From Phoenix dactylifera (taxonomy: Eukaryota; Streptophyta; Magnoliopsida; Arecales; Arecaceae), in contig NC_052399.1 in the NCBI RefSeq assembly GCF_009389715.1, forward strand, positions 5,768,585 to 5,832,584: a stretch of 64,000 nucleotides of DNA, given 5' to 3'. Below are positions 10,817-60,956 of the stretch, one piece after another. Under the pieces are notes generated by a model, which saw only the letters and a list, made by a program, of their open reading frames with translations, was not told the origin of the DNA and did no database searches. The stretch's first letter is position 1; each line of letters opens with the position of its first letter. The position numbers and the translations under genes were made by a program.

Positions 10817-13762
10817 TCACCCACTAGTGTTAGGCGTCGTCGACCTGCTTTCCCATCTCTCTGTGACAGCATCCGGCGAATAAGGTAGAATATTTTTCAG
10901 TAAGCTGGCATCTTCCTTCGCTGGAACATCAGTGTCCACCACTTTCTTGGTCTTGTACTCTCCACTCTCTATCTCTCTCAGCACCTCTAGAGCCTCCTTA
11001 ATGGAAGGTCTCATCTCCCTCTCTAGCTGCAAGCACCTGAATGCAAGTTCAGCCACCAGGGTGATCATTGTCTTCATCTCCCAATCTGTCTGATATCCAA
11101 GACTTGGATCCACCAACTGGTCAAGCTGGCAATTCTGGATCTTAGTTGTTGCCATGTTAGCCAAATTGATCTCATGACGGGTCCTATTGGTATCGACAGC
11201 CGGTTTTGATGATATGAGCTCTGCCAGTACCACCCCAAAGCTGTAGACATCACTTTTGTCGGTGAGCTGGTAGCACTGATGGTACTCCGGATCAACGTAG
11301 CCAGGGGTGCCCTGCGGAGCGGTGGATACATGGGTTGCGTCAAGCGGGAAGAGTCGTGACAGCCCGAAATCAGCTACTTTCACATGGAAGCTGTCGTCAA
11401 GCAAGATGTTGTTGGTCTTGACATCCCGGTGGATAATTTGTGGTTCAACTGCATGGAGGTAGCCAAGCGCATCAGCTGTTTCGATGGCGATGCTCAACCG
11501 GATAGGCCATGTAAGGCCTCCTTCCTGTGCTCGAGGGCCATGGAGGTGATCTGAAACGGTGCCATTGGACACGTACTCATACACAAGTAGGAGTTCGCGG
11601 CTGTGGCGCGAGGTGCAGCCGTAGAGGGACACAAGGTTCTGGTGGCGAAGGCAGGAGAGGATTTTGACCTCATTCATGAACTGCTCCACACGCCTGTAGT
11701 TGTGTTCATACAGTCGCTTGACCGCAACTACACGCCCATCTCGGAGCTTTCCTGTACAAAGGCAAGGCATCAGTTTCAATGGATACATTTCTGCAATATA
11801 TAGAGTCTTATAGACAAAGGAAGGGAGAAGATGAATTAGTTTGAATAAGAAGGGCAGCTAAATTAGCCTCAGATCTGGAACCAAACTGTTTATATGACGT
11901 CAGATACCAAGTTGTTTGTACCTTTGTAGACGGTACCAAAGCCTCCATCACCTAGTTCTTTGGAGGCACTAAAGCAATTAGTGGCCTCCTCAAGTTCCTC
12001 ATAGGTGAAGATGGTGGTCTGGTACTCACTTTTGCCCAATTCAGGGTCGTTCTTGAAGCATGGCTCGGAAGAGGCGGTTCGACCGAGCAGGATTGAAGAC
12101 GTCGAACGCTGCTTCCTCTTTCTGTGCTTGTACCAGGCAAGGCAGAGTAAGCTTGCAACGATGATGGCTCCCACGCCTGCACCAACTCCTGCTCATGATA
12201 ACAACAGGAACTACATAACTACATGATTATTTCATAAAAATAGGAGAATTTTGAGGTATCAGAATGCTTAAAAAATTTGTTCAGAAAAAAAGAGAAAAAA
12301 AACTAATATTCCACTTATACAATATGAGTACGTAGAATGGTGTGATGGATTCTGCTTTGCTTCAAAGGTGTTAATTATGACATACAACTTATAGGCAGGG
12401 ATTTGTATTAATTTATATAGCTGCTCAGCTGAGTTGAATAGTGATAGGTTTTTTAGCATTATGATTATTCTACAACAATTTATAGTGATTTTGTTTGAAA
12501 AGCGAAGGTAACTTAAATAGAGATCTTGATACCATGTGAGCCAATCCGAGATTATGTTTTGAAGAACTGATTTCCAGTTATCATAAGTAACTGTTACTCT
12601 ATAAACCTTGAAATACTGTACCAAAAAACGACTTCTCATGATGTTTAGAAAGTTGAAAAACATTTGAAGAGATTGGGTTGGTGTTCAGTACCTATTGCAA
12701 TCTTCCTCCATGACTTGCTTTTTTTTTCTGCACGAGATAATCCATCACAAACAGAGTTTAGTACAAAAAGAAAATGATTTTACCAGTTTAATCAGAAATT
12801 AAAACTCTCAGAAATATCTGTTTCCTTTAAAATTTGCCCATTTTCCTTTAGTAAAATTTACAAGTTTCTAAATAATTGCCAGTAATCTAAACCTTAAACT
12901 TCTAGATGCAACTTCATAAGCTAATTTGATTGGTTAATGCAAGTAGCTATCCGTAATACTTTGATGCATAAAAATATTGTAAAAATCGGCAAAAATTCTA
13001 CAGAAATATACTTTGACATTCGTTGTTGCATAGGCACGTGGAATCTCCTCCAGTGTCATGTTTGAAGCATCCCCACTTCTCCCCCTGTAAATGCGAGTAA
13101 ATGGCAGATGATAGGGAAAGGTTATCACGATCTTCCCCGAATGATAGCTTCCATTTGAACAATGGGCTGGGACTGGCCCAGCACGCTGCATGATGAGGTC
13201 CTTCATCCTCTAATCTATTGGAAAAGTGAAGCTGGTACTCTGTGCAAAGACTACGATTATAGATTTCGTGGAAGATGTCGGTAGAACAATTATAATCACT
13301 CAGGTTGCAATTGAAGAATGATTGGTTCTGGCCGACAGACTGAGGAAGGAACAAATTCTCAGATAGATGAACTGGAGGATCAAAATCATAACGTAAATTG
13401 CAGTCTGGTATCTGCAAGCCATTGCCGAACTCTTGGTCTTGAATTATGGTAAAATTTTGAGCGTAGTCAATTATTTCTAAGACGTACCAGTGCTCATGCC
13501 CATGAAATTGAATGATAGGTGTGGAGCCATTACAGGAGACCTTATGATGCCCTACGCATTCAGAAGTGGTGGTGTTTGTGCAGAAAGGAGACCTTATTCC
13601 TACAGAGGAAGGACTGCCGCATGGTAGACTCTTTGGATTCGATGGGGACGAGCAAGAAAGATTGGGGAAAACAAGGAAGATGAAGGGGATTATGAGGCAG
13701 GAAAAGGAAAGAGCCATAGTAAGTAACACCACGAGCTTTGCAGCACAACACACTAACAACAA
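10817..13762 (-). CDS. LRK10L1.2: LRK10L1.2-type receptor-like kinase (gene A), complete
   Basis: Four exons on the minus strand: 13762-13012, 12727-12692, 12188-11922 and 11751-10817. They total 1989 nt, closing in frame at 662 residues. All introns are GT-AG. Residues about 17-38 form a signal peptide. The Cys-rich ectodomain runs to about 250 and is a divergent GUB_WAK_bind/WAK_assoc type ending CLCNNECQ. The 36 nt mini-exon encodes the basic linker KKSKSWRKIAI. The transmembrane helix is about 264-281. The kinase has glycine loop GDGGFG (about 342), VAVK lysine (about 363), HRD (about 459-461) and DFG (about 479). STAPQGTPGYVDPEY and the C-tail match Arabidopsis LRK10L1.2. Expected role: plasma-membrane receptor Ser/Thr kinase with the ectodomain facing the wall. 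Internal Met17 (13714) is an alternative start. Confidence 0.88.
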
Positions 13763-14769
13763 CCAGCCCTCTTATACCACGGCCCTTTTTTTTGAAGGGA
13801 TCTCATTCCCCTGCCCTGATTGCTGAGAGTCTGTGGTTTCATAGATTCCATGCAAGACCATCTGTTTGACTTGGACTGGAGGACTAAGACGCGTGGTAAA
13901 ACCAAAACGTTGAACCCCACCGCGCCCATGTGAAATGAACTGGGAGAGGGAGAGGAGCTTCCATTCAGTTTGTCCTTGCGTTCAGACCTCTCCAAGACTG
14001 CCCAAGAAGTTGGGGAAAAGTGGGGAAAAATAAATTTTGTCCTTCTACTTGACTTCCACAAGCCTGTCGAAGAAGCTGGGGAAAGTGGGAAACAAAAAGA
14101 GGACCGACAGAGAGTGTAAACAATCTTTCTTGCTTGGCACGTCGGAGTTAGAAAGAAAGAAGAGGCGAGCTTCCTGGAAATTTCGGCAATGCTTTTAAAA
14201 ATTCTTGAACTTTGGTAAGGGGAGATAAACAGCATTCAGAAATCCTGCAGATTTCTGGGCAATTGAAAAGACTTGGAAAATGTCAAAGCCTTTCACATCA
14301 ATAGAGCAAAAGCGGCGGTACACCGTAATGCAGGGAACGCGTGGATACCATGGAGAAACTGTTTGTCATCTTTACTACCAACCAGGCATTAAAACAAATC
14401 AAAACAGAATCATGAGTGGTCAGTGGGCAATCATGGAATGGAAGTCTTTAGTCAAAGTCTTCCTAGTTGTCCATAAGCTCCTGGTCTCCTCACATCATTT
14501 TCCAGAGGAAAAACTTGCACCCAATTTGATGCATGATGGGACGTTCAGAGAAAACCTTGCACCCAATTTGTCCTGACAGGAAAGTCTGACTACCATAATT
14601 GTCACCTTAAAATCAGAGTCTTTGTCTATTTGAAATTAGAAAAAAATGGAACTTAATAGCATAATAGGATATCTATTCATTGAAGCCTTTGATGATGCCA
14701 TAAAAATGTGGAGAGAATGATCTGAGGGAAGAGTCATCTGGGGGATGCTGTTCTTACATCCAAGAACGA
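13763..14769. other. Upstream region of gene A
   Basis: Leader/promoter side of gene A on the minus strand. Open frames here have no family features. No clear TATA box was assigned. Confidence 0.4.
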
Positions 14770-15850
14770 CAAAGGTTAGTCGCTGCTTATGTTTGCGAAT
14801 TCCAGCACTATGTAGTAGTAGTTGTAGTTTTATTTTATTATGTAACTATTATAAGCTGTACTTGAGCAGTAGTAGGATGGAGCAATTTCTGGGATGTTCT
14901 GGGCTTCGCGGAGGGAAAGAAGCGTGAGGACCTTATGGACCTTGCCAGGTTTCTTCTAAGCAATTCATCCAAAAAATAGAAAGGTTTCTTCTAAGTAGTT
15001 GAAGTCCTTGCAGTGTGCTGGTTGGGCTGCTGGATGAAGTATCTTCCTATCTATCATTTCTCTTTTCATGTTCTAAATAGTTATTCTATCTTTCAGAAAT
15101 TTTCCCAAAGCTGTTTACATAACCGTAACCTGCTTTCTTTAGGAAAATAGGAGAGTATAAGGCAGGAAAGACCAGCATAGAGAAGAGTCTGAAAGAAAAG
15201 AGAGTGAAACAGGGAGAGGCAAGGAGGAGAATAGAAAGAGATAGGGAGATAGGGAGAATAGAAAGAGATAGAGACTGTCTTCCTATTCTCTTGATTTTTT
15301 TGACAGGATGGCTAATCTACCTTTTCTCTTAACAGTTTTGTGCAAGGATCTGCTGGTAAACAATGCTGGAAGTAAAACAGAGATGTTTATATGGTTCAAA
15401 GATAAAAGGACCCCTCAGCATTGTTTTACAGATAACAATATATGGTGAAAGTAGCTATTGTCAAATAGAACATGATTTATAAAACAAAGACAAGATTTAC
15501 GGTCTAATTGTTAAAGTAGCTGTGAAGATTTTGCTGCGTAGAGAAAGAACAAACAAAAAACACCCAAAAGACATCAATTTATCTTTCATCATCAGCTAAG
15601 TTGATTTCTTCATATAAAAATGTCAAAGTAATTTTCATCAAAAAACAGAAAATGTCAAAGTACTAAACCCTTTCTATTATATTTCTTGACGTGCACATTA
15701 TTTCCTCATAAAAAAGAAAGCTATGAAAGAAATGAATGCACAAGAATTGAAGCAACTGAAAAACATTGACTTCCAAAAGGAGCTCTGCTTGAGCAAAACA
15801 AGGAGAGCTCACCATCAATTCATTAAGATAATGAAAGGATAAATGTGCTT
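14770..15850 (-). repeat. Inverted segmental duplicate, partner at 58325-59615
   Basis: Read on the minus strand, this segment follows 58325-59615 block by block. Shared blocks include CATTATCTTAATGAATTGAT, TCATAGCTTTCT, the stretch around CCCTCAGCATTGTTTTAC, and TACAGCTTATA near the far end. At 58 kb the homologous sequence directly follows a receptor-kinase mini-exon, so this is duplicated intron DNA of an LRK10L gene. Here the mini-exon side is not recognisable. No coding content is seen. Confidence 0.75.
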
Positions 15851-16488
15851 TACTCATCTAACCACCAAAAATCCTAGCAGAGTTGATAGAAAGTAGAGGA
15901 TTACAAAAAAAATTTAGTCTGTTTTAAAAATTCAACAAGATTGGGCCGAATTTTCTGTATCAATTGGGCCTGTTGGGCATCCAAACCTATAGTCTTATAA
16001 AGGCCTATCCTAATCTTAGTCTAAATCCTATTTGTAAGCCTGTTGGACTGCAGAAAGAAAAAAGATCCATGAAAGTTTTCTTATTTCTTCTACAGAATTT
16101 GAGCTAAGGGGTGTATTTGTCTACATGGGCTCTATTCAAATAGACTGCCCACTCCATAAATTCAATAAGAAATCTATTCTAATCCTGCTGGATTTTTTAA
16201 ACAGGCTCTTAAGAGAAACAATAAGTATAGCATGTAACATAAATTAAAAATGTTAAGTATTATAGTTGATCAGTGTCGCTCCAATGCTTATCTCCTTACT
16301 TCTAAAATTCTCCGGTCATACTTGAAAAAAAATTATTTTTTATCTAAGTTTTGAATAATTGGTAGAGGGCTTGATGGTTATATCATTGTGAACTGCTAAT
16401 AAAATGCACAAAACCGAGCAAAACCTAGAACCTAATTGGCCGTTATCTTGGTATTAAAATGGAACTCAAAGTTGTCTGAAAAACTCAC
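15851..16488. other. Sequence downstream of ectodomain exon B
   Basis: AT-rich. If exon B is spliced, this is intron. I searched its minus strand by eye for the conserved mini-exon and found none. Confidence 0.45.
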
Positions 16489-17227
16489 TACAACTTATCC
16501 GATGGATCCGGTCGCGGCAAATACACATGAACGCGTTCTCGCTATGATCATATCCACACTGGCCTTTGCTTGCTCTGCACTCCGTGCAATTCGGTGCTTC
16601 CCAATCCAACAGATATCCATGCTCCAGAAGTGCCTTATAATCGCGGCTTTCCGCTCCTGCAAACCCCAAGACTGGTACCTTCGTGGTCGGACAATCCCCT
16701 GATATCTGGGGGTCTGGCTTGGAGTAATCGTCGCCGATATAAGCAGCATAACTTTTATTAGGATTGCAAGGTAATTCGAAGGAACCGGTCTGCTCTCTCC
16801 GGCAATTGTGGAGGAGGAGAAGTTTCTTGTTGACAGCACTGATACTGAAAGGTGTGCCAGCGAAGGAAAAATCGTCAATAGAAGATGAATTCGAGCAAAC
16901 GTAGTCTGAGAGCTTGGCCTCTGAAAGCCAAATGGATTCGTTGTTGTAGAAGATGCCTAGGATCTGCCTATCTCCGTAGGCCGTTTGGAGATAAGGGATG
17001 TCATCAGAACAGTTCACAATAAAAGTGGGAAAGCCACAGTAGTCTGGTTGCTGCCCTTCAATCCAAAACGGGTAGCTAATGTTCTTGATGCTCCCACAAC
17101 TCTTTGGCTCGCAATCCCCTATCTTTGGATCGGCAGCTATAGCTGTTCTCTCCAAACAGTAGATGTTGATGAAGAAAAAGGAGATGGAGAAGATCCCTCT
17201 GAATTGTAGCAGCAGGTTGGGATTCAT
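16489..17227 (-). CDS. Ectodomain exon B (GUB_WAK_bind + WAK_assoc), no own kinase
   Basis: An open exon of 739 nt from ATG at 17227 to a strong donor (A|GTGAGT) at 16489, leaving phase 1. It has a signal peptide (about residues 1-31). The GUB_WAK_bind domain opens CEPKSCGSIKNISYPFW with CGFPTFIVNC. The WAK_assoc tail is CTECRASKGQCGY ... CICRDRIHRISC. It is closest in the window to the ectodomain of gene F (CEPKICG, YPFW, CGFPSF). Neither mini-exon nor kinase follows before gene A. It may be (i) an alternative first exon spliced to the mini-exon at 12727, which accepts phase 1; (ii) a secreted ectodomain made by read-through, with a stop 23 nt past the donor; or (iii) a relic. The coding sequence shows no damage. 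Confidence 0.75.
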
Positions 17228-19721
17228 TTGGGATGAGCGTAGCGATACAGAGACCTAGGGGGCTGGAGAAAGAGCGAAGTTTAAAAGGTGGGTGATGGTT
17301 GAGTGGTTTGACCAGTCTCTGGAAGTCTAATTTTTCAATTCGATGACTAACAAGTCGTATTTTGAATGGGACAGCAGACAAATGGTTCTCTGGATGCAAT
17401 TCATCTATCAAAGTCAGACAAGTAACTCAGGGCCAAGCTGTGGGATCTTGAAAGTAATAAAGATGAGTGGTTTGACTTCTCTTTGGAGCTGGACCACGGG
17501 ACCGGCCAGAAGGATGGCAGAATACCCTATTTTTTCTCCTAGTGCGTCGGTGGGGCTGCGACTCACCAAGACAGACGCCTTTTATTGTCATGGAAGAATC
17601 CATTCTCCGCATTGTTGCGAGTTTGACCATTCATGTCATCGTCGCTGAGCTAGGATTTGGAAACCTCCGTTAAACATGCTTCACGCGCATGGCAAGCGCA
17701 GCCCCTTGGTGGGCTGGATCATGATATTAAATAACCACATCAAACATGCTTCATGGACATAGGCCGGTGTTATACCCTTTTTTTTTTTTTTTTTTTTTTC
17801 CTTCTTCTTTTTTTTAGTTACATTTTGTATCTTGACTTAGTTGATTGTACTTACGCCAGATTAACTTGAGCGACCGTTTAATCAAAAAAAAAATACACAC
17901 ACATTATAACTGTTATAACAGTTGTCATAACAGTTTCGATCACCTCACGTTATATCATTGAAATAAATAATATAAAAATAATAACAATCATTATTTTCAC
18001 TTAGACTTTCTTTATATACAATAATATTTATTTCAAATTTTAATTTTTTTAAAAAAATTTTCTCAAATTTTTCTCCCAAAATAGTTGCATGGTCCAAAAT
18101 ATAATTATTTTATCTAGTAAAAACAAAACAAAAGAAAGCACCATTATTTCTTTTGTTAATATCAGTTATTTTTCATTATAACACTGTTATAACATTCATT
18201 GTATTAATAATTATTTCAATATTAACATTTTAAAATAGAAAATGGCTGATATAAGTATTATGACTCTCGTTAAGGTTTCATTGGTTGGATGTTTGACAAG
18301 TCAAGTGAGGGAAAAAATCATCTGGGCTTATAATAATTAAGATGGTTGTAACGATTATAGCATGTTTTAATTAATTAATCGCAGTCAAAATACCTCTAAA
18401 TAAAATATGGAAATAATGCTGAGAAGTATTTAGTAAATAAAATGCAGTAATGATAAGGTTGTACATATTTTAAATAATGATGGAATATTTAACTAAAGGG
18501 CATCCTAATGTACCAAGCTTTTGGTACAATTGAACCTAGAGAGGATAAAATGTATGTAGCCCCATTACTGTATGTATGCAAAGAAAGTTTTCCGTGTTCT
18601 AGACCCGTGACACTCTTGCTATGCAGCCTTATTATTGTACTACTGCCTACCCTTCAATAATGGAAGACTTAATTAACAAATAAAAATCATGGCAAATTAG
18701 TTGGACAGTGACCCTTCTTGTACTTTTTAAAGGAACATTGACAATAACTTTATGAAATTTTTAAAGCTGCTAATTTATCTTACCATAAATATGAGCTAAC
18801 GACGTAAGAAGAAATAAAGATGGCAAAAGAAGACAGACAGGACAAATCCAAAGATAGCTGCTTAAGACGATTTACATAAAGATATTGCACAAAATAATCC
18901 ATGCAAAGGACAAAATTTCCCCCCTCTTTCTATGTGTATGCGCATGCGGTTTTGCACACCTTTGCATCCGTAAGAGCATGCAGGTGTGTCTTTTATTACT
19001 TCCCAAGGTTAGCCACAATTCTGAGAATTTCCATCCCAATTGTTATATCTTTTGTCCGAGAATCATTACTCGGACTTTCTACCCTTGTAATTTCAGTTAC
19101 ATTGTTCGTGAGGAGAAACAAAATTTATTAAGGCCAATTCATATGCCAATGTCTCCTACAACTTTGTTCTCTTGAAAACTTATCTTTCAAGTGCTTCAAC
19201 TGCTATTCGGAAAATTGTACTCTGAAATTGATTGTCAGCTATGCATACCTACCAAAATATCATGCGTAAGTTTGCTCGTCATAATAGGAACTTCACCTAC
19301 CGTCGCGTTGTGAATAAGTTATTCAAGTCCGTAAGCTTCATTTTCTTTTTAACTGCCCCTGCCAGCGGTCTCTATTTAAAATGACACCGGTCAGTCTCAA
19401 CGAACTGTTTCAATAAAAAACTACTCCAATGTCAAACTCATGCTCCTTTTAAAAGCCTTTCAAAAGCATCATCTGTTTCTGTTAGGAAGGAACTAATACT
19501 CTCCTAACGCATCAGAAATATCTAATCCTATCAAATAATCTAGGATTCCTAATTCACCTCCACACGCTCCATCACGCCCAAATCAAATACACCTAACCAT
19601 AAACGTTGGCTGGACGCTGACCCAACCCAGATGACACGTCCTGGGCCGAACCAACTTTGTGTTCCAACTAATTGAAAAGATGAAAAACCAAGACAGGGAG
19701 AAGAAAGAAGGGAAGACATAC
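17228..19721. other. Between ectodomain exons B and C
   Basis: The first 100 bp would hold the promoter/leader of B. The rest is AT-rich with a T tract near 17781-17799. No kinase exon or mini-exon was found. Confidence 0.45.
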
Positions 19722-20457
19722 CCCTACAGCCGTCAGGACAGTTGCCGACCACCGTCGGGGCATTGCGATAGACATCGCCGGAACCTTGACAACCTTCGCA
19801 CACTCCCTGCTCCACCGTCCACGTTACGCTGATTCCCTCCTGCATCGCCTCCCCAAAATTCTTCCCGAACAATAACAAATCATACATCGTCCGGTTTATA
19901 GGAATGATCCCAATCGAGCTGCACCTCCCAAGCGGGTTCGACCGCTCCTGAAGAGGCTGCTCGAGCAAACTATAGTATGAATCCAGCTGAATCCCTCCGG
20001 TTGGGCAGGCGATTTTATAGAAGCCGTCCGGAAAGGAGTCCAAGGTGCAGTTGAAGTAGAAAGAGAGATTGAAGTCGAGCCTGGCATAGCTGAAGAGGGA
20101 GGAGTTGATGATGGTGTTGGTGAAGGTGCGAGGACAGCCTTCTCCCGTGAGATCCGGGTCGATGATTGTGAGGATTCTATTCACGTAGTCGATGCTCTTG
20201 ATCTGGTAGGACTTCTTGCTTATGTTAATTGTCAGAATGGATCGATCCTTGTTGCAAGCGAGCTCGAACCCTGGAAAGCCGCAGGACTCGGGCCCGTCAA
20301 GTGGCCGGAACGGGAAGGTGATGTTGTAACGATTGCGTCCGCAGTCGTATGAAGTAGCGGGAGCGCACTCCTTGAATAGAGTGCTGCTATCGGCTTTGGA
20401 AAGCAAGGAAAGCATGAGGAGAAGGATGGGTGAGAGGAGAGAGTATGAAGGGGACAT
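19722..20457 (-). CDS. Ectodomain exon C (GUB_WAK_bind + WAK_assoc), no own kinase
   Basis: Open from ATG at 20457 to a donor (GTATGT) after 19722; 736 nt, phase 1. Signal peptide MSPSYSLLSPILLLMLSLLS. The GUB_WAK_bind region has YDCGRNRYNITFPFR, CGFPGFELAC and IKSIDYVNRILTIIDPDL. The WAK_assoc part has EGISVTWTVEQGVCEGCQGS. The Cys cluster near the 3' end is partly lost: after CEGCQGSGD the usual C-G-Y step reads VYRNAPTVVGNCPDGC. There are several N-glycosylation sites (NIT, NIS, NSS, NLS, NCT, NRT). No kinase follows. The frame runs on past the donor for another 57 codons to a stop at 19549, so an unspliced secreted form is also possible. Confidence 0.72.
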
Positions 20458-21732
20458 CCTGGCCGGGTTCTCTTACTGAATGTTGGGAACCTCGGCATGG
20501 GAAGAAAGTTATTAAGACTTTAGAGGAGACGATTAGATGAGTAGATGGGGTTGGAGAATCCTAGTCAATTGTTGGGGAATCTTAATCAATTGGAAAGAGA
20601 TAGGATTTAGGGACGAAGAAAGAAAAGGGTATGTTGATTCGTTCAAAGCAGGTGATGAGTGACGAGAGATGTTTAATATTTCTTGTTCCTCTAGAGAGTT
20701 GCCGGTTGAGAAATTGACTAGCGCAGTGCTCCGGTCCAGGCCGGCAGGCCGCCACCAATAGAACACCTGGCAGGTGATGGTTGGGTGGATTTGGAGAATT
20801 ATCAAATGGACGACCGGGAGCATTAATTCTAGGCCATTAACTGGAGCACATCAATTTTGGATTGGTCCTGGGTAAAGGGGCCTGGTGATCTAGTGTTGCT
20901 TGGGGTGGGAGAAACCTTGGGCGTCCAAAAGCGTTACACACGCCAGAAAGGGCAAGTTGAAGATGGATTTAATTTAATTTTTTGTAAGTACCTACATGAA
21001 TGTGTATTTAGTCTTATATCAATTATGTGCTTAAAAGATCTTGATATTTATATAGAACTAAAAAAATATAAATAACACCATTTAATTAACTTTTTTAAGT
21101 TAAATTCTAGATTATTATACTTTTTTCTATTGCATCACATCCATTAACATTACTCTTTTTTGTCTTTCCTCGAGACGATATGTAAGAACAACTGATAGCA
21201 AATGAAATTGGCTTTAGATAATTCTTTGTGCTCAGAAACATTGCTTGCTTCATGGCAATATGCTCATAAACCCCATCTTGAAACTCTAATTATCATCACT
21301 CAATCTCCCTAAAATACTTTTCCTAGCAATTCAACATTTGTTTTTGATTCACTCCAATATCTTTTCTATATATAATAAGCTCCAGGAGTGGAGCCCACGC
21401 ATCTCCGTCCCCCTCTTTGTTTCATCTCTACCAACCCATGTGTCAGGTTTTCAAGAAAAAGATTTCTCGAGGCAAATTGCATTTTTTCTAAAGTGAACTA
21501 CTTCAAATCAACCTAATTCACTAGACCTGATCTGTAGCATACCTAAATTCCATGGCTTCTTGGCTCTTTCCTGAAACTATTTTTATCTTTTTTATATAAA
21601 TTTGGCACCTATAACAAAGCTGATGTTTCTCGAATCTTAAAGCTGTGTGATTTGCCTTAGATCTTCAAGTTCTTTCGAATTGAGTAGCTACTTGAAAGAG
21701 AACAACTTGCAGGGTACGGTCCGAATACATAC
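20458..21732. other. Between ectodomain exons C and D
   Basis: Promoter side of C, then AT-rich sequence. The stretch just below 21733 resembles the sequence after the donor of pseudogene P at 30023-30110, so it is old intron DNA of the same gene type. No kinase exon. Confidence 0.5.
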
Positions 21733-22519
21733 CTTCATGACACGAGCCGTTATGCAATCCGTCGGGACAGAAGCAGGGACGATCATCGTCTGAATCGTAC
21801 CCACAAATCCCACCAGAGCCGACGCAGCCTCCGCACCACGCGCTTCCCACCATCCACCTCAAGGCGAACCCCTCCTGCAGCGCGCCCTCGAAGGATATAC
21901 CGCCGCTCACCAATTGCCCCACAACCGTCTTATTCATCGGAAGAATCACAGTTGATTGACACCCGGCTGGCAAACTAAAGTTGTCGAGCCAATAATACCA
22001 GTACAGCCTGGTGATGTCGTCAAAGAGGCAGCCGATATCATGTAGCGGAGGATTTTTTAAGCTGCTGCAGTTGATCAACACGGTGATGTTCAGGTCAAGG
22101 TCGGAGTACTCGAAGAGGAGGTGATCGAAGGTGGTGTTCTCGTCTGGCCTGGGGCAGGACTGGCCGACATAATTCTGGTTTACGATGGTCAGGAGTCTGT
22201 TCGAGTAGTCGACGCCCTTCACTTGGTACTCAATATTTTCCATTTTGATCATGGGTTCTTGGTCGACGCAAGTGAGGTTAAAACCTGGGTAGCCGCAATA
22301 GTCGGGACGGCCATCCACAAGAAACGGATAAGACACATCGATCGACAAGTTTCCGCAGGTAAAAGGTGTCCGAGCAGCACAATCCAAGTATTGTTTGGAG
22401 GTTGCATCGGCGAAAGAAGGCGGCAGCGACGACAAAGTGAAGAAGAGAGCGAGGAGGAAGGGAAGAAACATTTGTTGAAGGAGAAGCTGTAGATGTATTT
22501 TGTCCTGCTTTTGGCTCAT
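21733..22519 (-). CDS. Ectodomain exon D (GUB_WAK_bind + WAK_assoc), no own kinase
   Basis: The ATG at 22519 (MSQKQDK...) precedes a leader ending LPPSFADATS; a second Met 17 residues on starts a cleaner signal peptide (MFLPFLLALFFTLSSLPPSF). The exon ends at 21733 before GTATGTATTC, phase 1 (787 nt). The GUB_WAK_bind domain has FTCGNLSIDVSYPFLVDG, CGYPGFNLTC and [18 protein letters not shown]. The WAK_assoc domain has ALQEGFALRWMVGSAWCGGC and GGICGYDSDDDRPCFCPDG. It is a close paralogue of the ectodomain of gene G and of pseudogene P. The frame is open further upstream, but the added residues have no signal-peptide character. No kinase follows. Status as for exon B. Confidence 0.77.
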
Positions 22520-23614
22520 TGGTTCGGCAGCTTTAAGGAATTTATAGAGCAACCTCGAAGAGAAGGAATGGAAGGAAAATGAGATGAATTGGTTCTTACG
22601 TTGTTTGGTACGTGGCATTTTATCAATGGTTAAAGAGAAATGAAGGGAAAGTGGAACAGAAGATGGCGGCTGGAAGAAATTATTCATAAAATGACAAGCA
22701 TGCCGGTCAAGGCATGGTCGGGCACGCCCCCCCCCCCCCAAAAAAAAGCAGCGTTGGCTCTAAGATATTTCTTCTCTGACTAGTTAAACCGAATGTGCCG
22801 TGCGTTGCCCGTCCGTCAATCGACACAGCCACTGCGCGGCGGTCTTGTTTGTGCACAACATTGGCACGCACCTAGCCAGCCGCTGACGACCCGGTATCTT
22901 GCTTCTAGACGAATTGTATGTTCCACGATATCATTACAATTGAATAGGAGTTGATAAAAAACATTGCAGGATGAGTTAGGCTTAAACTTGCAGGGAAAAA
23001 AAAAACCTCTGTCGGCAATAGCTGGCACGTTGGGACTTCTACAAACAAAGGCTAGCTGGAGCTCAGATATCTAATAATTGATCAATCCAAATTAGTGACT
23101 CTAATAAGTTAACTTAGAACCTTGTCAATCATAAATAGATAAATATTTTATATGAATAGTATTGAAAAATACAAGTTTAGTATGATTTATTCTATATTGA
23201 AAAAGGTGTTGGGGGAGTTTTGGATGTCAGATTTGTCGACGAGTGAAATTTAACTTGTTCCCGTAAAAAAATATACAGAAGCGGATGGAACTCCCAACCG
23301 GTGATCTGTTTCGAGGAGACTGGCAATAAATCCCAGATAATTACTCCATCTTAGTTTCTAATTGTACGTTACATCCATGTTTGAACGAAATCTACAACCT
23401 AATCAATTAAGAACAGTTAATTAACACTATAATAATAAAATTTGTTGTTATTTTGGGTCCATTTTTTAGCATGGAAACATGAGTTTTGCTGACTGATCAT
23501 TGGAAGTCCAACTAGCTAAACTTTTTTTTTTAAAAAAAAGAAATAACTAGCCAAAAATTGTGAAACTTTGAATGCATGTTAAAAAGAGAAGTTTTGAGGG
23601 AAGTAGTCACGTAC
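22520..23614. other. Between ectodomain exons D and E
   Basis: Contains a C-run/A-run near 22728-22747. No kinase exon or mini-exon was recognised. Confidence 0.45.
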
Positions 23615-24458
23615 CGGATTTCCGGACCTCGGCCCCTGCCCTATAAGCTTCCTCCTGCGATCCGTCCATGTGATGGCATACAAAAGCCCGGTCTCCGGCA
23701 CCGGTCTCGCTGTAGCCGCACAAGCCGCTAATCCTCTCGCAGCTCCGGCACTCGTCCCCACCCTCCGTCTCCCAACCCAGTTCGAACCCCCTCTGCAAGA
23801 TCCGCCCGAACGCGTCCGAGAGCACCCCCACGTTCTCCTCCAGCGCCGCCTGCAGCACCGGCACCACCACGACCTCCTCGCACCTCGACACCAATTCATA
23901 GTCTACTGGGATCTCCGACCCATTCCAGAAGATGTAAGAAAGTCCGGCGCCCCTCCCCAAACAGTCAATCAGACGGATTGGCAGAACAAAAGAGCAGTTG
24001 ATGTAGAAGGTGAGGTTGGTGTCGTTGGAGGTGAAGTGCAGTGAAGAATTGGCCCCGAAGGAAACGTTTCCGTGGGCCGTGGGGCAGGTGGCAGGGCCTT
24101 GAAGGACGCTGGGGTCAGTGAGGGAGATGGTGCGGCTCGAGTAGTTGATGTCGGTCACGGCATAATCCCCGGAGGGGAGGCGGAGGACCGGGGTCTGGTC
24201 TCGGCACACCAGCTGCAACCTTGGGTAGCCACAGTAGGAGGAGGTGTTTGTGTTTGTTTTTATTGCTGTTGAGTTCTGGGCGATCCAGAAAGGGTAATGG
24301 ATGTCGGGGCCTTTGCCGCCGCAGCTGAAGGACGTGCAGCTTGAGATGCTGGTGTCGTTTGGGGGGATTGCAATACTGGTTGTGATACTGGAGAGAAAGA
24401 AGAAGAGAAAGAGGAGGGCGACGTGCGGAAGAGGAGGGGTTCTAGGGCTGCGAGGCAT
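23615..24458 (-). CDS. Ectodomain exon E (GUB_WAK_bind + WAK_assoc), no own kinase
   Basis: ATG at 24458 (MPRSPRTPPLPHVALLFLFF, signal peptide) to a donor (GTACGT) after 23615; 844 nt, phase 1. The GUB_WAK_bind domain has FSCGGKGPDIHYPFWIAQ, YCGYPRLQLVC and VTDINYSSRTISLTDPSV. The WAK_assoc domain has ILQRGFELGWETEGGDECRS and CERISGLCGYSETG. The last Cys motif (usually C-x-C-x-DG) reads VCHHMDG, then a short extension EAYRAGAEVRKSG, so the 3' end has diverged. It is markedly GC-rich compared with B and D. An upstream in-frame Met at 24518 adds 20 non-signal residues and was not chosen. It is the most distal member of the minus-strand array, about 11 kb from the only kinase module. Confidence 0.73.
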
Positions 24459-40509: not shown

Positions 40510-40881
40510 GGTGATTTGAAAGCAGAACAGGGGCAGAAATTTCTTGCTCGGTTGTCCGAGCTTTCCCTTGTCTCGTTTAAACTCTTCCGGGCAGCGCGCT
40601 GAATATCCGTATCTAACCTGTATCTCTAAGTCCAAATATTGACTCTAACTGGTCCACATCTTACGCCAAGAAGACGACCGTTCCACATTCCTCTAGCACA
40701 ACTAGCCCTCACCAAACGAAACCATTATTGTTTATGAACGAAAACAGCGTTCTTTTCCCAAAGAATACGTACTACAGTCCCTAGTCCACCCTTTTCCTTC
40801 CTACCTACCTCCACCGAGCAATATAAACATTTTTTCTTTTTAATGCAAGAGCAATATAAACATTTTTTTTGATGCAAGAGA
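40510..40881 (+). promoter_or_regulatory. Promoter of gene F with duplicated TATA unit
   Basis: Shares collinear blocks with the module upstream of pseudogene P. Immediately before the gene, a 33 bp unit containing TATAAA is tandemly duplicated (40816-40848 and 40849-40881). This gives two TATA boxes at 40822-40827 and 40855-40860, about 110 and 75 bp before the ATG. Confidence 0.6.
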
Positions 40882-40934
40882 TACATAAATATTTTACTCC
40901 ACTCTCTTCTACTTCAAACTGCCTCTCCTCCACA

Positions 40935-43900
40935 ATGACCTGGGTAGCATTCCCCTCATTCTTCCTCCTCTCCTCTGCACTAGGAGCAACATTAGCTGCC
41001 AGCCAATGGACAGGCCCTCGGATGGAGGACTGTGAGCCAAAAATTTGCGGGCAAACAAACGTCTCATACCCATTCTGGCTCCCCGGACGACAACCATCCT
41101 ACTGTGGCTTTCCCTCCTTCAGCCTTACGTGCGACAACAACGTGCCCACCATCCAAATATCCGGTCAAGATCATTACATCCAGAGCATCTTCTATCAGAA
41201 CCAATCCATGTTGGTTGCCAACGCCGAATACGTAGATGACAGTTGCCCAGTTGCCCATCTAAACCTCTCAGTTGATCCCAAATCATTCACCATCAGCTCG
41301 GCCAATAAGGCTCTACTCTTCTCTTATTGCCCAGAACCACCGCCGAATCAGTATAGAGTACCTTGTGCTTCTACCAATACTTCTGTCTTTCTTGGTGGTA
41401 GCATGATGCCTAGCCACATAAATTTATCAAGCCAATGTGATACTGTCGTTGCACCAGTCTTGGCCTATCCAGGAGCTAATAGTAGCGATTATGCGACCCT
41501 TCTGAAGAACGGATTTCTTTTGGACTGGACAGTCACCGATTGCACAGAGTGCGCAACAAGTGGAGGCAAGTGTGGGTATGCGAACACGACACAGCAATTT
41601 ATCTGCATCTGTGCTGATGGAGCTCATTCCACAATCTGCAGTAAGTCTTCTGTCCTAGATTCCTAAAGAGTTCCTCTACCATAACTATGAAGCAACGATA
41701 TCCTGCATGTACTTAAGAAGAGCACTTCCAGGAAATGTCATCAAAAAAGTTCGGTTGTATCAATTGAGTCCATGATGATATCTTCAAGTTCCATTGTTCT
41801 GTGCTTCTAGGCTTGCTGCCTAATATCAAGAATCTTGCAGCAGTTATGAGATTCCAGTTGCCAGAGTTCTCATTCATCTCCTTGGAGGGAGTGAGGATCT
41901 GCAATTGTAGACCTTCTTCTGTTAACTGAATCCCCCGTTTTTAGGTCCAGTTTTCCTGCATCGCTTCTTCGATGTTGTGTGTCAGTTCCTGCATGTTGAT
42001 GCTCCACTGAGGCCTTCTTCTTACTACTGTCCTCCCTCTCACATGATGCTCCTTAGGATTACCTTAATATTTTTCCCTTTTTTTTCTTTTCTTTTTAAAG
42101 AAAATTGCATACAGCACCACTGTTTCGTAAGGGTGGAGAAAAATCCCTTGTAAACAGCGCAAAAAAAAGGAAAAAGACACTAAAGAAATAAACAAAAAAC
42201 AAAAGAAAGTAGAAAAGAGAGAGACGGAACAAAGAAGCAGATCGCGTGGAGTTGGAATGAACAGGCTGATCGGATTGAGACGCACAACATGGCCTCTCAC
42301 TTCAGCCAAGATGTTCTGACTTCTCTAGCAGCCCTCTTGCAAGGGTCTTGAATGAAATATAGGAGAGCAGGTCAGGGTTACAGAATCTGCACCAACCAAC
42401 CGATCTAATTGATCCAACTCTTTTTATTTTTGAGAAGAACAGTCAAATTGATCCAACTAATCTTTTGTTTCGCTTTCTTCCATTGCTTGTATGCCTCCCA
42501 AAGAGTGACAATAATTTCAACAAACTACAGAAGCTCAAATCTAGTCCATCTATCCATGACCATCTTGAGCAAATTGCATTCTAGATGAATTATTTGATAA
42601 AGTCAATGGTCTCTGACGTTTGGTTGGAATACCAGATTATAATGCCCGAGACCGTTAACATAATTTTGACTTCTTTGAATGTAGAATTTATGCGATTTGG
42701 AGTTTACCTATGTCAAGAAGCAATTTCTTGTTCATTAATTCAGAACAACAGGGTGGAGTCTATAAGAATTAAATTGGGAGAATGCACAGTCTTACCAGTA
42801 ATTATGGCCCTCTTAACTGTAATATTTAAGTAGAAATTTAAACAGAAACAGGCTGCCCTCTTTATGGCTGTAATATGGAATCTATTTCTTATCTTTTCAT
42901 TAGATGAAATCTTGTCTAAATGTTTACTTTACTTCCTCCACATTCCATCAAAAAGAAATTTAAACAAAGCCATAAATTCAATCCTCTAAAACTTTATCGC
43001 TGAACAAGATGCCTCTGAAACGAACCTTAATCTGCACCCTCTTTAACTCTTCCAGGTCCTTTTCCCTCTTTGTTTAGGTTACACAGACTAAGTATTGACA
43101 CCATTTTCATTAGTCTTTGATCTAAGGATGAAATATTGGTTTGACCAGCGTAAGATCAAATAGAACAACAAGATATTAAAAAAGTTGATGGGTGGCATTA
43201 TGGATCCCATTTTACACTACAAGAGAGAAAAAAATTAAATGGTAGCCAAAATTTTGTAGTTACGTTACTAGAACTTTCAAGTCTTCAATCCTTACAATTA
43301 AGAATAGAAATGATATAGGATACTTTGATTGATTTACTATGTGACTTTGTCAATCTTGCACTAACTGTAACATTTACATTCTTGCAGAAGACAATTCCAC
43401 TAAAACGAGAAAGATTGCAATAGGTACATACTCTTCGCCATGGCAACCTTTTAAAGATTTTTCTTCTAAAACTACCTTTTGAAAGTTTTGAATATTGGGC
43501 AGCATGCTATTTGCTTAAGGTATTTGAGATATTCTGGACTTTCTAGCAACAGAAAACAATTTCTCTAATTCTTGATGCCAACTTTTATTGTAAATGAAGA
43601 AATGCATTATGACTAAATTGAATATCTTTCAGCATCTCCGCAACACACTGTTTTATAAAGTAGGCTCTTCTGCATCAGATTAGGCTCTGTTGATGATAAT
43701 GTGAGGAAACCTGGAGTCTCTATATCTGCATAGTCAAAATAATCTTCTTCCATGGCTTTATGGAAGTACATCAGGTGAACCATGTCAGAAATAAGGCACC
43801 CTAATGCATGAATTGACTTCCTAAATATACCCAACGATGTGATGAGAAGTTGAAATAATTGAACCATGTTTTGCACCTAAGAATATGTCAGGCAATAATT

Positions 43901-47370: not shown

Positions 47371-47599
47371 CGCTAGAGTAGTACAGGTGTCTCTATTTTA
47401 TGCGTTGCGCCTTTCTTTATCTGACTCGGGAGAAATCCCTCACCACTAGTCCGAACTCTGAAGCCAAAGGGAACGTGGTTTTGAAATTTGGGCTCTTACC
47501 TTGAAAGTTTCCTTGTCCCGTTTCAAATCCGACGAACTTGGAGATAAATACCTGGAATTCAACCACCAGTAGAAGCTTACCAGACGAAAGGAGAGAACC

Positions 47600-50500
47600 A
47601 TGTACCTACAATCCCCTCCTCCACCTTTTCCCTTCCTTCTCCTTCTCTTCTCCATAATATCATTCCTGCCGCCTTCTTTCTCCGATGCCTCCTTGCAGCA
47701 ATACAAGGATTGCTCTCCGGTCCCCTTTACCTGCGGAGACCTCAGCATCAATATCTCCTACCCATTCCGAATGGATAGCCGTCCTGACTACTGTGGCTAC
47801 CCGGGCTTCGATCTCACCTGCACCAACAACTCCGCCATGGTGATCCGCATCAACGGCAGGCGCTACCAGGTGAAGGACGTCGATTACTCGAACCGGCTTC
47901 TAACCATCGTCGACCCCGATTTCCTCGGCCAATCCTGCCCCCAGCCATATGAGAACACCACCTTGGATCTCCGCCGCTTCGAGTACTCCGACCGCGACCG
48001 GAACCTCACCGTCTTCCTCAACTGCAGCTCCCCGATGCTACATAGCAACGACTGCTTCGTTAACGATACCGCCGGGGCCGGGCTGCGACTTTATTATGGG
48101 ATCCAGAACGGTAGTTTGGCTGGTCTTGGGGGGATTTGTCGTTCCACTGTGCTCGTTCCGGTGAGTCAGACGGCTGCAGGCCTTCTGATGAACGGCAATT
48201 TGAGCTTCGGGGACGCGCTGCAGCAGGGGTTCGCAGTGAGTTGGAGGGCGGGACGAGCGTGGTGCCGCGAGTGCGTCGACTCTGGTGGGTTTTGTGGGTT
48301 TTATTCCAATTCCACCGCTGATCGGCCCTGCTTCTGCCCCAATGATATGGCTAACGGCTCGTGTTCGGTAGTAGGTAAGTTTGTCGACCCTGCACCGACG
48401 TTCTCTTTCGTCTTGTTTCTTGATTTATAACCGAAGAACAGCTTCGAAATTGGCAATCATGAGATTTATTTTAGACAAGTTTCGATAAGGCCGAGGATAT
48501 CCCCGAATCCTAGAGCTCAGTTCCGACCAAGCTTATACAGGGGAAGCCCTTCTCGGAGGTATTGTTCGTTTTGGAGGAGTTTCATAGTCTCTTCCCCATG
48601 CACAGTTTTGCCCCACAAAAAATGCGTCTAAAGAGGGAGAAAAGTGTGGTCAACGGGAAAGTAATGAAATGCCTCTTGTTTGGTTGGAGTTTTCAAAGGA
48701 GAGAGATGGAAAAGTTGTATTCCCATGGAAATATGATTCCCACATTTCATGAGAAAGTCTTTCCCATGAGAAACATGGGAAAGTTACTTTCCCATGAGGT
48801 GGGAATCACTCCTTTTTTATTTTTTCCCAAAAAGACCCTTCAGCATTAAAGAAGCATTAAAGAGGCATTAAAGACCTAATTTTTATTAAGGGCATAATAG
48901 GAATTATACATAACTTTCCTAGGAAAGTGGATGGTCAACCAAACAAAAGCACTTTGGAAATTTGTCACTTTTCCATGGTTAACCAAACATGCCAAAAGTA
49001 CTTTCCTAGGTATCCTCTTCCTAGGAATCTGATTCCCAGGAATCATATTCCTAGGAGGAAAAATACTTCCCGCGAACCAAACGAGCCCTAAAGAGAAAGG
49101 AGTAGCTCCCCTCCATTTAAGAAACATCTGTTTCTTCCCCACGCACGATTTGCCCCATAAAAAGCGCCTCTAAAGAGAAAGGGGTAGCCTCCTCCATTTA
49201 AGGAACAGACCTCTCCGCTATCTAGTCGATGTGGGACTAAGTTCGGACCCTTTATTTCCACAATAAATTTAATGCTAGATTGGGTGCAATCATGCCAGCA
49301 CTAACTCACCGGATTCCATCAAAATTTTGTGGCTAAGCATGCTTGAACCAGAGCGGTACTAGGATTGGGATTAGGTAGGCAGTTTTTTTGGACAACAATT
49401 AGTGGAAAGATAGAGCAGCCATGCTGTGTTAATGTCGAACTAATATAAACGAGCCGTGTTACTAATTTTTGTTTTCTAATTTTTTTTCTTAAGTTTTAGA
49501 TTTTGAAAATAAAAAATATATTTTATTTTTAAAATTTTCGAAAGAAAAGCAACAGTTTTGGCTTTTCCACACATCTTTAGTTGGTACAAGCCAACAGTTG
49601 GTCATCGGTCATCATGCATGAATATTTCATAATTTTCCTGTGTTTCCTTTCTTAGGAGATTTTGGGTCTTCTGATAATTGTTAGTGTTGTGGGTGCAGAA
49701 TGCAGAGCTTTTAAATATTTTTAAATATGAAATTCTTTTAAAGGTGACTAGAGAATCCCAAAAGTAACTGCGTTTCTCATGTAACTGCGGGTTGCTGCAT
49801 CAAGTATACTTAACCCGGATGGCGTTTTCTAGCCTCCCTTACAATCAAAAATACATCAAGCAGTTAACCGTAGGTTGTAGCTAAGTGAACCTTAGTTACT
49901 GGTTTTGGCTATGTTTTAAGCTTTTCATTGTGTCACGCCCCGAACTCAGCATTCGGGTCCAGCACGTGATATGACCGCACACGCCCTAGGACAGAGCCCT
50001 TGAGAATATGTAAAGCCTAAGATGAACAAAATCTGATAACACCACAATTAATCAATTAATCTAAATAGATAAATCCAAAATATCCAATTAATCAAACTAG
50101 TTCATTTACAATTGTTCATCGAAAAATAAACTAACTGATGACTCTGGTACTCGAACTTCATGCCCAATCTATATGAAATTATACATCCCGCGACTTTGAA
50201 AAAAAAAGAGAAGGGGTTGTGAGCTTTGCATTCCAATAAGAATTCCACACATCTACACCAATCCAATACTAATATAAATTTAAAAACTACAAGAAATCGT
50301 TGCACACATCATAAAAAAATAAACCGATAATCAATAATGCTCGAATAATCACTATAAAGTATGTACATCAAATATCAATAGAAATCCAGCTACATAAGTA
50401 TGATATATCATATAACATCTCATAAATCTTCAATTGTGTTTTTAATGCTTTTCATTCCATTCCTTTTTAACTTGATCTAGATCAATTATCTTTCCGATTT

Positions 50501-59842: not shown

Positions 59843-59994
59843 TGGTATTAGAGTATGGTTCGAAAAACTATGCTCTACCCACCTCTTAATCAAGAAACAC
59901 ACTAGACCTCGTGGAATCCATGGAGGATTCATCTGAGATGGTGCAATACCACAACTCCTAGGCCGAATCCATTCTTAATGACCTGACGTACAAG

Positions 59995-60956
59995 ATGACA
60001 GAAGTTCTGATCAGAGCCCAAACCTCCCCACACCCACCGCTTGCAGATTCTTCAACAGCTCCAATCGGCATTAAGTTGGATGGTTCCAACTATGCCTTAT
60101 GGTCCCAGATTGTCGAGATGTATATCTCTGGCAAAGACAAATTGGGATATACCAATGGAGACTCTCCCCAGCCGAAAATTGACCCATCTTATCGGAGATG
60201 GCGAACCAAGAACACTATTGTCAAAGGATGGCTAATCAACTCGATGGATTCATCCTTGATTGCAAACTTCATTCGCTTCCCTACTGCAAAACAGGTATGG
60301 GATTCTGTTGCTACAACTTATTTTGATGGGACTGATACTTCTCAAGTTTATGATCTCCGACATCATGTAACTCGCATGAGACAAGCCGGTGGATCCATTG
60401 AAAAATACTACAACGACCTTCAAGGATTATGGCGAGAAATCGATTATCGTCGTTCCAATCCTATGGTCTGCCCTGGTAATATCCAGAAATACAACTCAAG
60501 CCTACAGGAAGATAGAGTTTATATCTTTCTTGATGGATTGGACGATTGGCCAGACAAGATTCAGAGTGATGTGCTACAGCTGAAATCGTTCCCTACAGTT
60601 GAGCAGGCCTATGCTCATGTCCGACGGAAAGATGTTCGGCAGACCGTGATGACCTCAGGTGCGGATTCCAGTCTTGGTCCTGTTATGGCATCTAAAGGAA
60701 TCAAGACTAGCCAATCAAACATACAGTCGAAAATAGGGTCACTTCCTCTAAGCAATGAAAAATTGAACCCAACCTTCAAGTCTAAACTGGGCCAATCTGA
60801 TGGTGGGAAATGCACTCACTGTGGCAAAACCAAACATACCCGTGAAACTTGTTTCAAGTTACATGGATACCCAAATTGGTGGAATGAACTTCAGGCACGA
60901 AAAAAGCGTGAGACTACAGCCACTGATGAAGGCACGAGTAGAGCTGCTGTGGTTAA
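59995..60956 (+). CDS. Copia gag polyprotein (truncated by insertion)
   Basis: About 320 codons. It begins MTEVLIRAQTSPHPPLADSS and has the copia gag signature KLDGSNYALWSQIVEMYISG, then FDGTDTSQVYDLRHHVTRMR and EKYYNDLQGLWREIDY. A zinc knuckle follows, CTHCGKTKHTRETC (C-x2-C-x4-H-x4-C), then FKLHGYPNWW. Known role: capsid formation and RNA packaging. The frame enters the inserted LTR at 60957 and stops about 37 codons later. Gag itself is otherwise open, suggesting the insertion is not very old. Confidence 0.9.

Follow-up and report, generated by a model that had tools for sequence, protein, structure and literature searches.

An array of ectodomain exons, probably alternative first exons of one receptor-kinase gene, in the date palm Phoenix dactylifera

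How a single receptor kinase comes to lie behind five ectodomain exons is the question raised by a 64,000-nucleotide stretch of the Phoenix dactylifera genome (contig NC_052399.1, C8:5768585-5832584 of the 773-Mb assembly), hereafter the window. On its minus strand, five tandem ectodomain exons, A to E, lie head to tail and are followed by a single mini-exon, transmembrane exon and kinase exon (Table 1). We take the kinase to be putatively of the LRK10L1 type; it was 31-33% identical to the kinases of two other genes in the window, F and G, which are presumably of the LRK10L2 type. The array itself is real, and its exons probably function as alternative first exons. On the sequence, we consider this to be, with fair probability, one LRK10L1-type receptor-kinase gene with A-E as its alternative first exons; B and D would most likely be used besides A, and C and E less surely.

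The first-pass annotation of this DNA had described five open ectodomain exons with phase-1 GT ends before one mini-exon, transmembrane and kinase module, and this layout was upheld by a scan for open reading frames (ORFs), by reading of the donors and by in-frame models. Between 24458 and 10817 the minus strand contained six ORFs of at least 230 amino acids (aa), namely the five ectodomains and the kinase exon, while 300 shuffles of this region gave 0.003 on average and never more than one. Each of A-E had its own start codon and a signal peptide (judged by eye), and each could be fused to the mini-exon, transmembrane exon and kinase exon without a stop, giving spliced models of 647-693 aa. 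The model of exon D was begun inside its exon and has 654 aa; its second ATG would give 658. The start of exon A had been placed at 13762, but this position is a TTG and the ATG lies downstream. The Pfam domains GUB_WAK_bind and WAK_assoc both scored above the cut-off in three of the five exons (B, D, and E). Candidate introns from the donors to the mini-exon measure 0.3 kb for A and up to 10.9 kb for E, and every exon stays open beyond its donor until a stop codon.

A search for related loci revealed four kinase exons of this clade at 80% identity or more among the matches listed, the next best having at most 52%. They are that of the window and those at C4:20329696, C9:13835133, and C9:13855048; the window kinase was 80-86% identical to the other three, and the synonymous divergence (dS) of the kinases was 0.36 between C8 and C9 and 1.36 between C8 and C4. 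At C4, a broken A exon (in all frames) and then open exons of the B type, the D type, and three of the E type lie upstream of the kinase in the same orientation. The C4 mini-exon (33 nucleotides, nt), transmembrane exon and kinase are all open, and, going upstream, the first ectodomain with an open frame is of the B type, at 4.2 kb from the mini-exon and 5.4 kb from the kinase exon. Because the nearest exon is broken in front of an open kinase (branch ratio of nonsynonymous to synonymous substitution, omega, 0.08), C4 is the best natural test: this kinase should use exons farther up, or lack an ectodomain. The order kinase-A-B-D-E is common to C8 and C4, and C is without a C4 counterpart. The dS values of the C8-C4 pairs (B 1.9, D 1.5, E 1.1-1.4) are near saturation and similar to that of the kinases; together with the common order, this suggests that the array was present before the C8 and C4 loci parted and was apparently duplicated as a unit. 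Downstream of the kinase, the neighbour genes at C8 and C4 are also alike (46% across 101 aa, some of it of low complexity).

At C9, each kinase is preceded by an A-type exon at about 2 kb and by another at 20 or 10 kb, and the first kinase also by a frameshifted D-type exon at 42 kb. Two side observations were made here. An A-type exon with an LRK10L2-type transmembrane-kinase exon about 1 kb downstream (C9:13844762-13847500, L059) is a possible mixed receptor. Before the kinase at 13835133, two candidate mini-exons of 33 nt, each bordered by ag and gt, stand in tandem (L020:239-271 and L020:575-607), where the other loci have one; they are possible alternative juxtamembrane exons.

The number of ectodomains per kinase was counted across the genome from a list of 129 kinase matches (obtained by scoring 127 of 1808 first-look candidates) and a list of 72 ectodomain matches (from 82 scored candidates) plus four A-type exons. 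The count included ectodomains up to 60 kb upstream on the kinase's own strand, and the list does not cover LRK10L2 kinases. Among the matches listed, 99 of the 129 kinases had no upstream ectodomain, 26 had exactly one, and the remaining four had 5, 5, 3, and 2. More than one was found, among these matches, only at the four kinases of the array clade (4 of the 30 having any).

Ectodomain exons are copied without kinases. In the C4 array, E1 and E2 were 88-91% identical to exons of two opposite-strand LRK10L2 genes, and the match opens 5-10 bp ahead of the ATG and runs 0.1-0.65 kb beyond the exon into the intron, leaving out the kinase. At C8:5836699-5837496 (plus strand, L062), exon A recurs with 95% identity; the likeness begins 0.9 kb or more upstream of the ATG (0.9 kb being the reach of the query) and stops about 10 bp beyond the donor, and there is no clade kinase there among the kinase matches listed. 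No kinase was found in the 6.4, 5.5, and 1.5 kb read downstream of the ectodomain copies at C4:20437706, C4:20458156, and C8:5836699, respectively, and tblastn (E 0.001) detected no remnant of either the array kinase or those of F and G in the stretches separating the ectodomain exons. Copying of this kind requires no kinase loss, and the disappearance of four kinases, which had been offered as the alternative to shared use, is unneeded, given that no remnants were detected and that recent copies carry only the exon and part of the intron. At C4 we also noted an inverted E-type duplicate, 98% identical and about 10 kb apart (C4:20350480-20349440, minus strand, and C4:20360121-20361161, plus strand), which is either a recent duplication or an assembly artefact.

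The ectodomains of B and D had been said to resemble those of F and G. This holds for D, with 58% identity to G and a dS of 0.57; B is nearer to the C4 B-type exon (43%) than to F (39%), and groups with the former in the protein tree (support 87/80). We do not claim one-to-one orthology for D from the order of the exons, as C, D, G, and the D types of C4 and C9 are unresolved in one clade. The protein branches of C (1.39), E (1.05), and B (1.01) are long compared with the 0.35-0.54 of D, F, G, and the C4 B and D types (c4B, c4D).

Neutral evolution of the exons was simulated in 5000 runs each, D at half its dS to G and B, C, and E at a quarter of theirs, with a fixed share of frameshifting indels assumed. 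None of the 5000 runs was free of stops and frameshifts for any of B, C, D, and E, and counting stops alone, 0.2-1.1% of the runs were stop-free. Under this model, the frames of B-E are kept open beyond simulated drift. All 14 conserved cysteines are present in B, D, F, G, and the open C4 exons; D looks intact, and B appears to have an intact cysteine frame but to be fast-evolving.

Alternative first exons on one kinase, as the first-pass annotation proposed, are the best-supported reading. We favour them because the duplicate array has the same exon order and, in front of its open kinase, a broken A, because multiple ectodomains occur only at clade kinases among the matches listed, and because there are no kinase remnants in the tblastn search and peptides are reported for Arabidopsis LRK10L3 in the passage on that gene (PMC13136898). 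In the mechanism that we propose, each first exon would have a separate, inferred promoter, and transcription from one exon would run through the downstream ectodomain exons and the shared module. The downstream first exons would be skipped, as expected if they putatively lack a 3' splice site, and the phase-1 donor would be spliced to the shared mini-exon, transmembrane exon and kinase exon. One common kinase would thereby be equipped with different wall-facing ectodomains, and the array would grow by the copying of ectodomain exons without kinases. More tentatively, and with a chance that we put somewhat below even, the five C8 and five C4 ectodomains could be chosen by promoter for one kinase, with sensor exons copied from neighbouring LRK10L2 genes; this old, duplicated array would then be a small protocadherin-like repertoire of an immune or cell-wall receptor.

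Several points weigh against alternative first exons and temper the original proposal. Its promoters and splice junctions are inferred from sequence. Matching splice phase is weak evidence for an array: a phase-1 GT stands at the exon end in 21 of 21 ectodomain exons of the window and related loci (some of them near-identical copies), either at the domain's last cysteine or up to five codons beyond it (in E, at the domain end), and the transmembrane exons behind F and G likewise accept phase 1. The agreement is thus family-wide and says only that any ectodomain could join any of these kinases. The donors had been called good, which is true of D (AAG/GTATGT) and C (GGG/GTATGT); those of B (GTA/GTGAGT) and E (CCG/GTACGT) are middling and that of A (AAA/GTATAT) is weak. 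TATA-like boxes stood at three of the five array exons and 8 of the 17 exons scanned, which is not convincingly over a background of 0.22-0.24 per random place. Kinase-less copies arise without an array as well, so copying alone is no proof of use. At C9, the two A-type exons credited to the second kinase have an LRK10L2-type transmembrane-kinase exon between them; because of it and of the frameshifted D type, the C9 counts of 2 and 3 may overstate the usable exons (the 2 may be 1).

The first-pass annotation had suggested that dN/dS be used to judge the exons. Branch codon models were fitted on star trees of three sequences, in which synonymous distances are saturated. Omega was below 1 for C (0.11-0.25; p about 1e-7) and E (0.14; p about 1e-15), neutrality being rejected for both, but their branches are very long (t 5.5-11.7 for C, 8.3 for E) and the low values may be an effect of saturation. 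Neutrality was not rejected for D (0.46, p 0.06), A (0.65, p 0.055) or B, whose omega lies at the bound (20; p 0.08) and is unusable as an estimate. Two of the 14 conserved cysteines, near the C-terminal end, are gone from both C and E, which may be eroding. In recent copies (C4 E1/E2, the C9 A types, and exon A with C8:5836699), dN was about equal to dS and roughly the same as the divergence of the flanks, with no sign of constraint; they give no evidence for or against use. Positive selection on such copies is not claimed: c9A1-c9A2 gave p 0.049, and the other 11 of the 12 pairs were not significant.

The duplication of ectodomain exons has a known outcome in the Brassica S locus, where the receptor-kinase ectodomain exon of SRK was duplicated without the kinase and the resulting SLG is secreted. 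By analogy, B-E might be separate short genes, ending past the donor, for secreted kinase-less ectodomain proteins that act as decoys or co-receptors. Their own ATGs, their frames, which continue beyond the donor until a stop, and the kinase-less copies elsewhere are in line with this, and a dN/dS below 1 would suit any protein function. Here, however, the phase-1 donors are kept and the tails behind them are not: the tails diverge among distant copies (SEFFRQL in B, SESSPHLKEFV in c4B, SKSSVLDS in F), and those of D, c4D, and G do likewise. Such divergence would fit an intron better than coding sequence, although it is not decisive because a secreted tail may vary. A second difficulty is that at C4 the B type is the open ectodomain closest to the kinase, and we regard secreted proteins as unlikely.

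It might also be that A alone is used and that B-E are slowly eroding tandem or ectopic leftovers, some of them open by chance or through gene conversion from kinase-bearing genes. The cysteines missing from C and E, the long protein branches of C, E, and B, the neutral-looking recent copies and the frameshifted C9 D-type exon are what such decay would leave. We nevertheless find it distinctly improbable in view of the simulation, in which not one of 5000 frames of B, C, D or E remained intact, of the broken A and open upstream exons at C4, and of the rejection of neutrality on the C and E branches, with its caveat of saturation. Even the traffic of exons between LRK10L1 and LRK10L2 loci could be the whole explanation, as a reservoir whose exons are expressed only directly before a kinase. 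The identity of C4 E1/E2 to LRK10L2 exons, with the match ending in the intron, and the likeness of D to G speak for such traffic, as does the first-exon duplication with a change of kinase described for cucumber LRK10L1/L2 in the passage on these genes (PMC7649820). A reservoir leaves unexplained the upkeep of B, C, D, and E and the C4 kinase with its broken nearest exon, and we hold it to be very unlikely. Alternative first exons remain the reading that we prefer.

The clustered protocadherins of vertebrates have tandem variable ectodomain first exons and one common constant 3' part, and the date palm array likewise combines tandem variable candidate first exons with a single constant 3' part. 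The proteins are unrelated, however, the exons here are far fewer, and the variable exon of protocadherins holds the membrane segment. Stochastic promoter choice, with one variable exon per cell, belongs to the protocadherin system. Plants are thought to widen their receptor repertoires mainly through whole-gene duplication. An array of sensor exons on one kinase would be a cheaper way for a repertoire to grow and would give one signalling output to several wall or pathogen cues. Gene-family counts that need whole gene models could miss such exons or split them into false genes.

The first-pass annotation had noted that Arabidopsis At1g18390, which we take to be the gene number of AtLRK10L1, makes two LRK10L1 products from alternative promoters. 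In the passage on AtLRK10L1, distinct promoters are reported to give two transcripts, LRK10L1.1 and LRK10L1.2, from one gene; there are two forms rather than five, and that passage contains no description of an exon array (PMC10573068). Arabidopsis LRK10L3, of the same receptor family, also uses an alternative first exon: according to the passage on it, different ectodomains are joined to identical transmembrane and kinase parts, and peptides exist for both isoforms, whereas the five candidate first exons here are known from sequence (PMC13136898). Domain reshuffling is reported for cucumber CsLRK10L1 and CsLRK10L2, whose ectodomain and kinase relationships disagree; as described there, each kinase has one ectodomain, in contrast to the several ahead of one kinase here (PMC7649820). 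An array could help to explain such mismatches in LRK10L genes. In the literature searched, judged mostly by titles and the starts of abstracts, we found no report of a plant receptor array of more than two first exons. The principle is therefore known in the LRK10L family, and the length of the array, its apparent age and its repeated occurrence were not met in the literature searched.

Table 1. Features of the array and of the two other receptor-kinase genes in the window (positions in the window).
Feature	Position	Strand	Remarks
Ectodomain exon A	13012-13717	-	ATG 13717; phase-1 donor after 13012; A type, closest to the kinase; no Pfam match
Ectodomain exon B	16489-17227	-	GUB_WAK_bind and WAK_assoc; 14/14 conserved cysteines
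Ectodomain exon C	19722-20457	-	GUB_WAK_bind; WAK_assoc under cut-off; 12/14 cysteines
Ectodomain exon D	21733-22519	-	GUB_WAK_bind and WAK_assoc; 14/14 cysteines; second ATG 22471
Ectodomain exon E	23615-24458	-	GUB_WAK_bind and WAK_assoc; 12/14 cysteines, final two missing
Mini-exon	12692-12727	-	36 nt; phase 1 to phase 1; cag and gt borders; 33-nt counterparts at C4 and C9
Transmembrane exon and start of kinase domain	11922-12188	-	Open reading frame; in-frame join
Kinase exon with stop	10817-11751	-	Pkinase (Pfam)
F ectodomain exon	40860-41666	+	Kinase exon behind, at 45131
G ectodomain exon	47573-48430	+	Kinase exon behind, at 54895

Structure prediction was also attempted. AlphaFold2, run with six ectodomains of the window, gave a mean predicted local distance difference test score of 66.8, too weak for the assignment of disulfide pairs, and a search of solved structures gave as its best hit a capsid protein (E 0.23), which is not credible. 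Elsewhere in the window, two regions resemble parts of mobile elements, both by eye: an ORF at 59962-61068 on the plus strand looks like a Copia-type gag with a zinc knuckle, and 25900-24800 on the minus strand, upstream of exon E, has the look of a reverse transcriptase/RNase H remnant of a retroelement.

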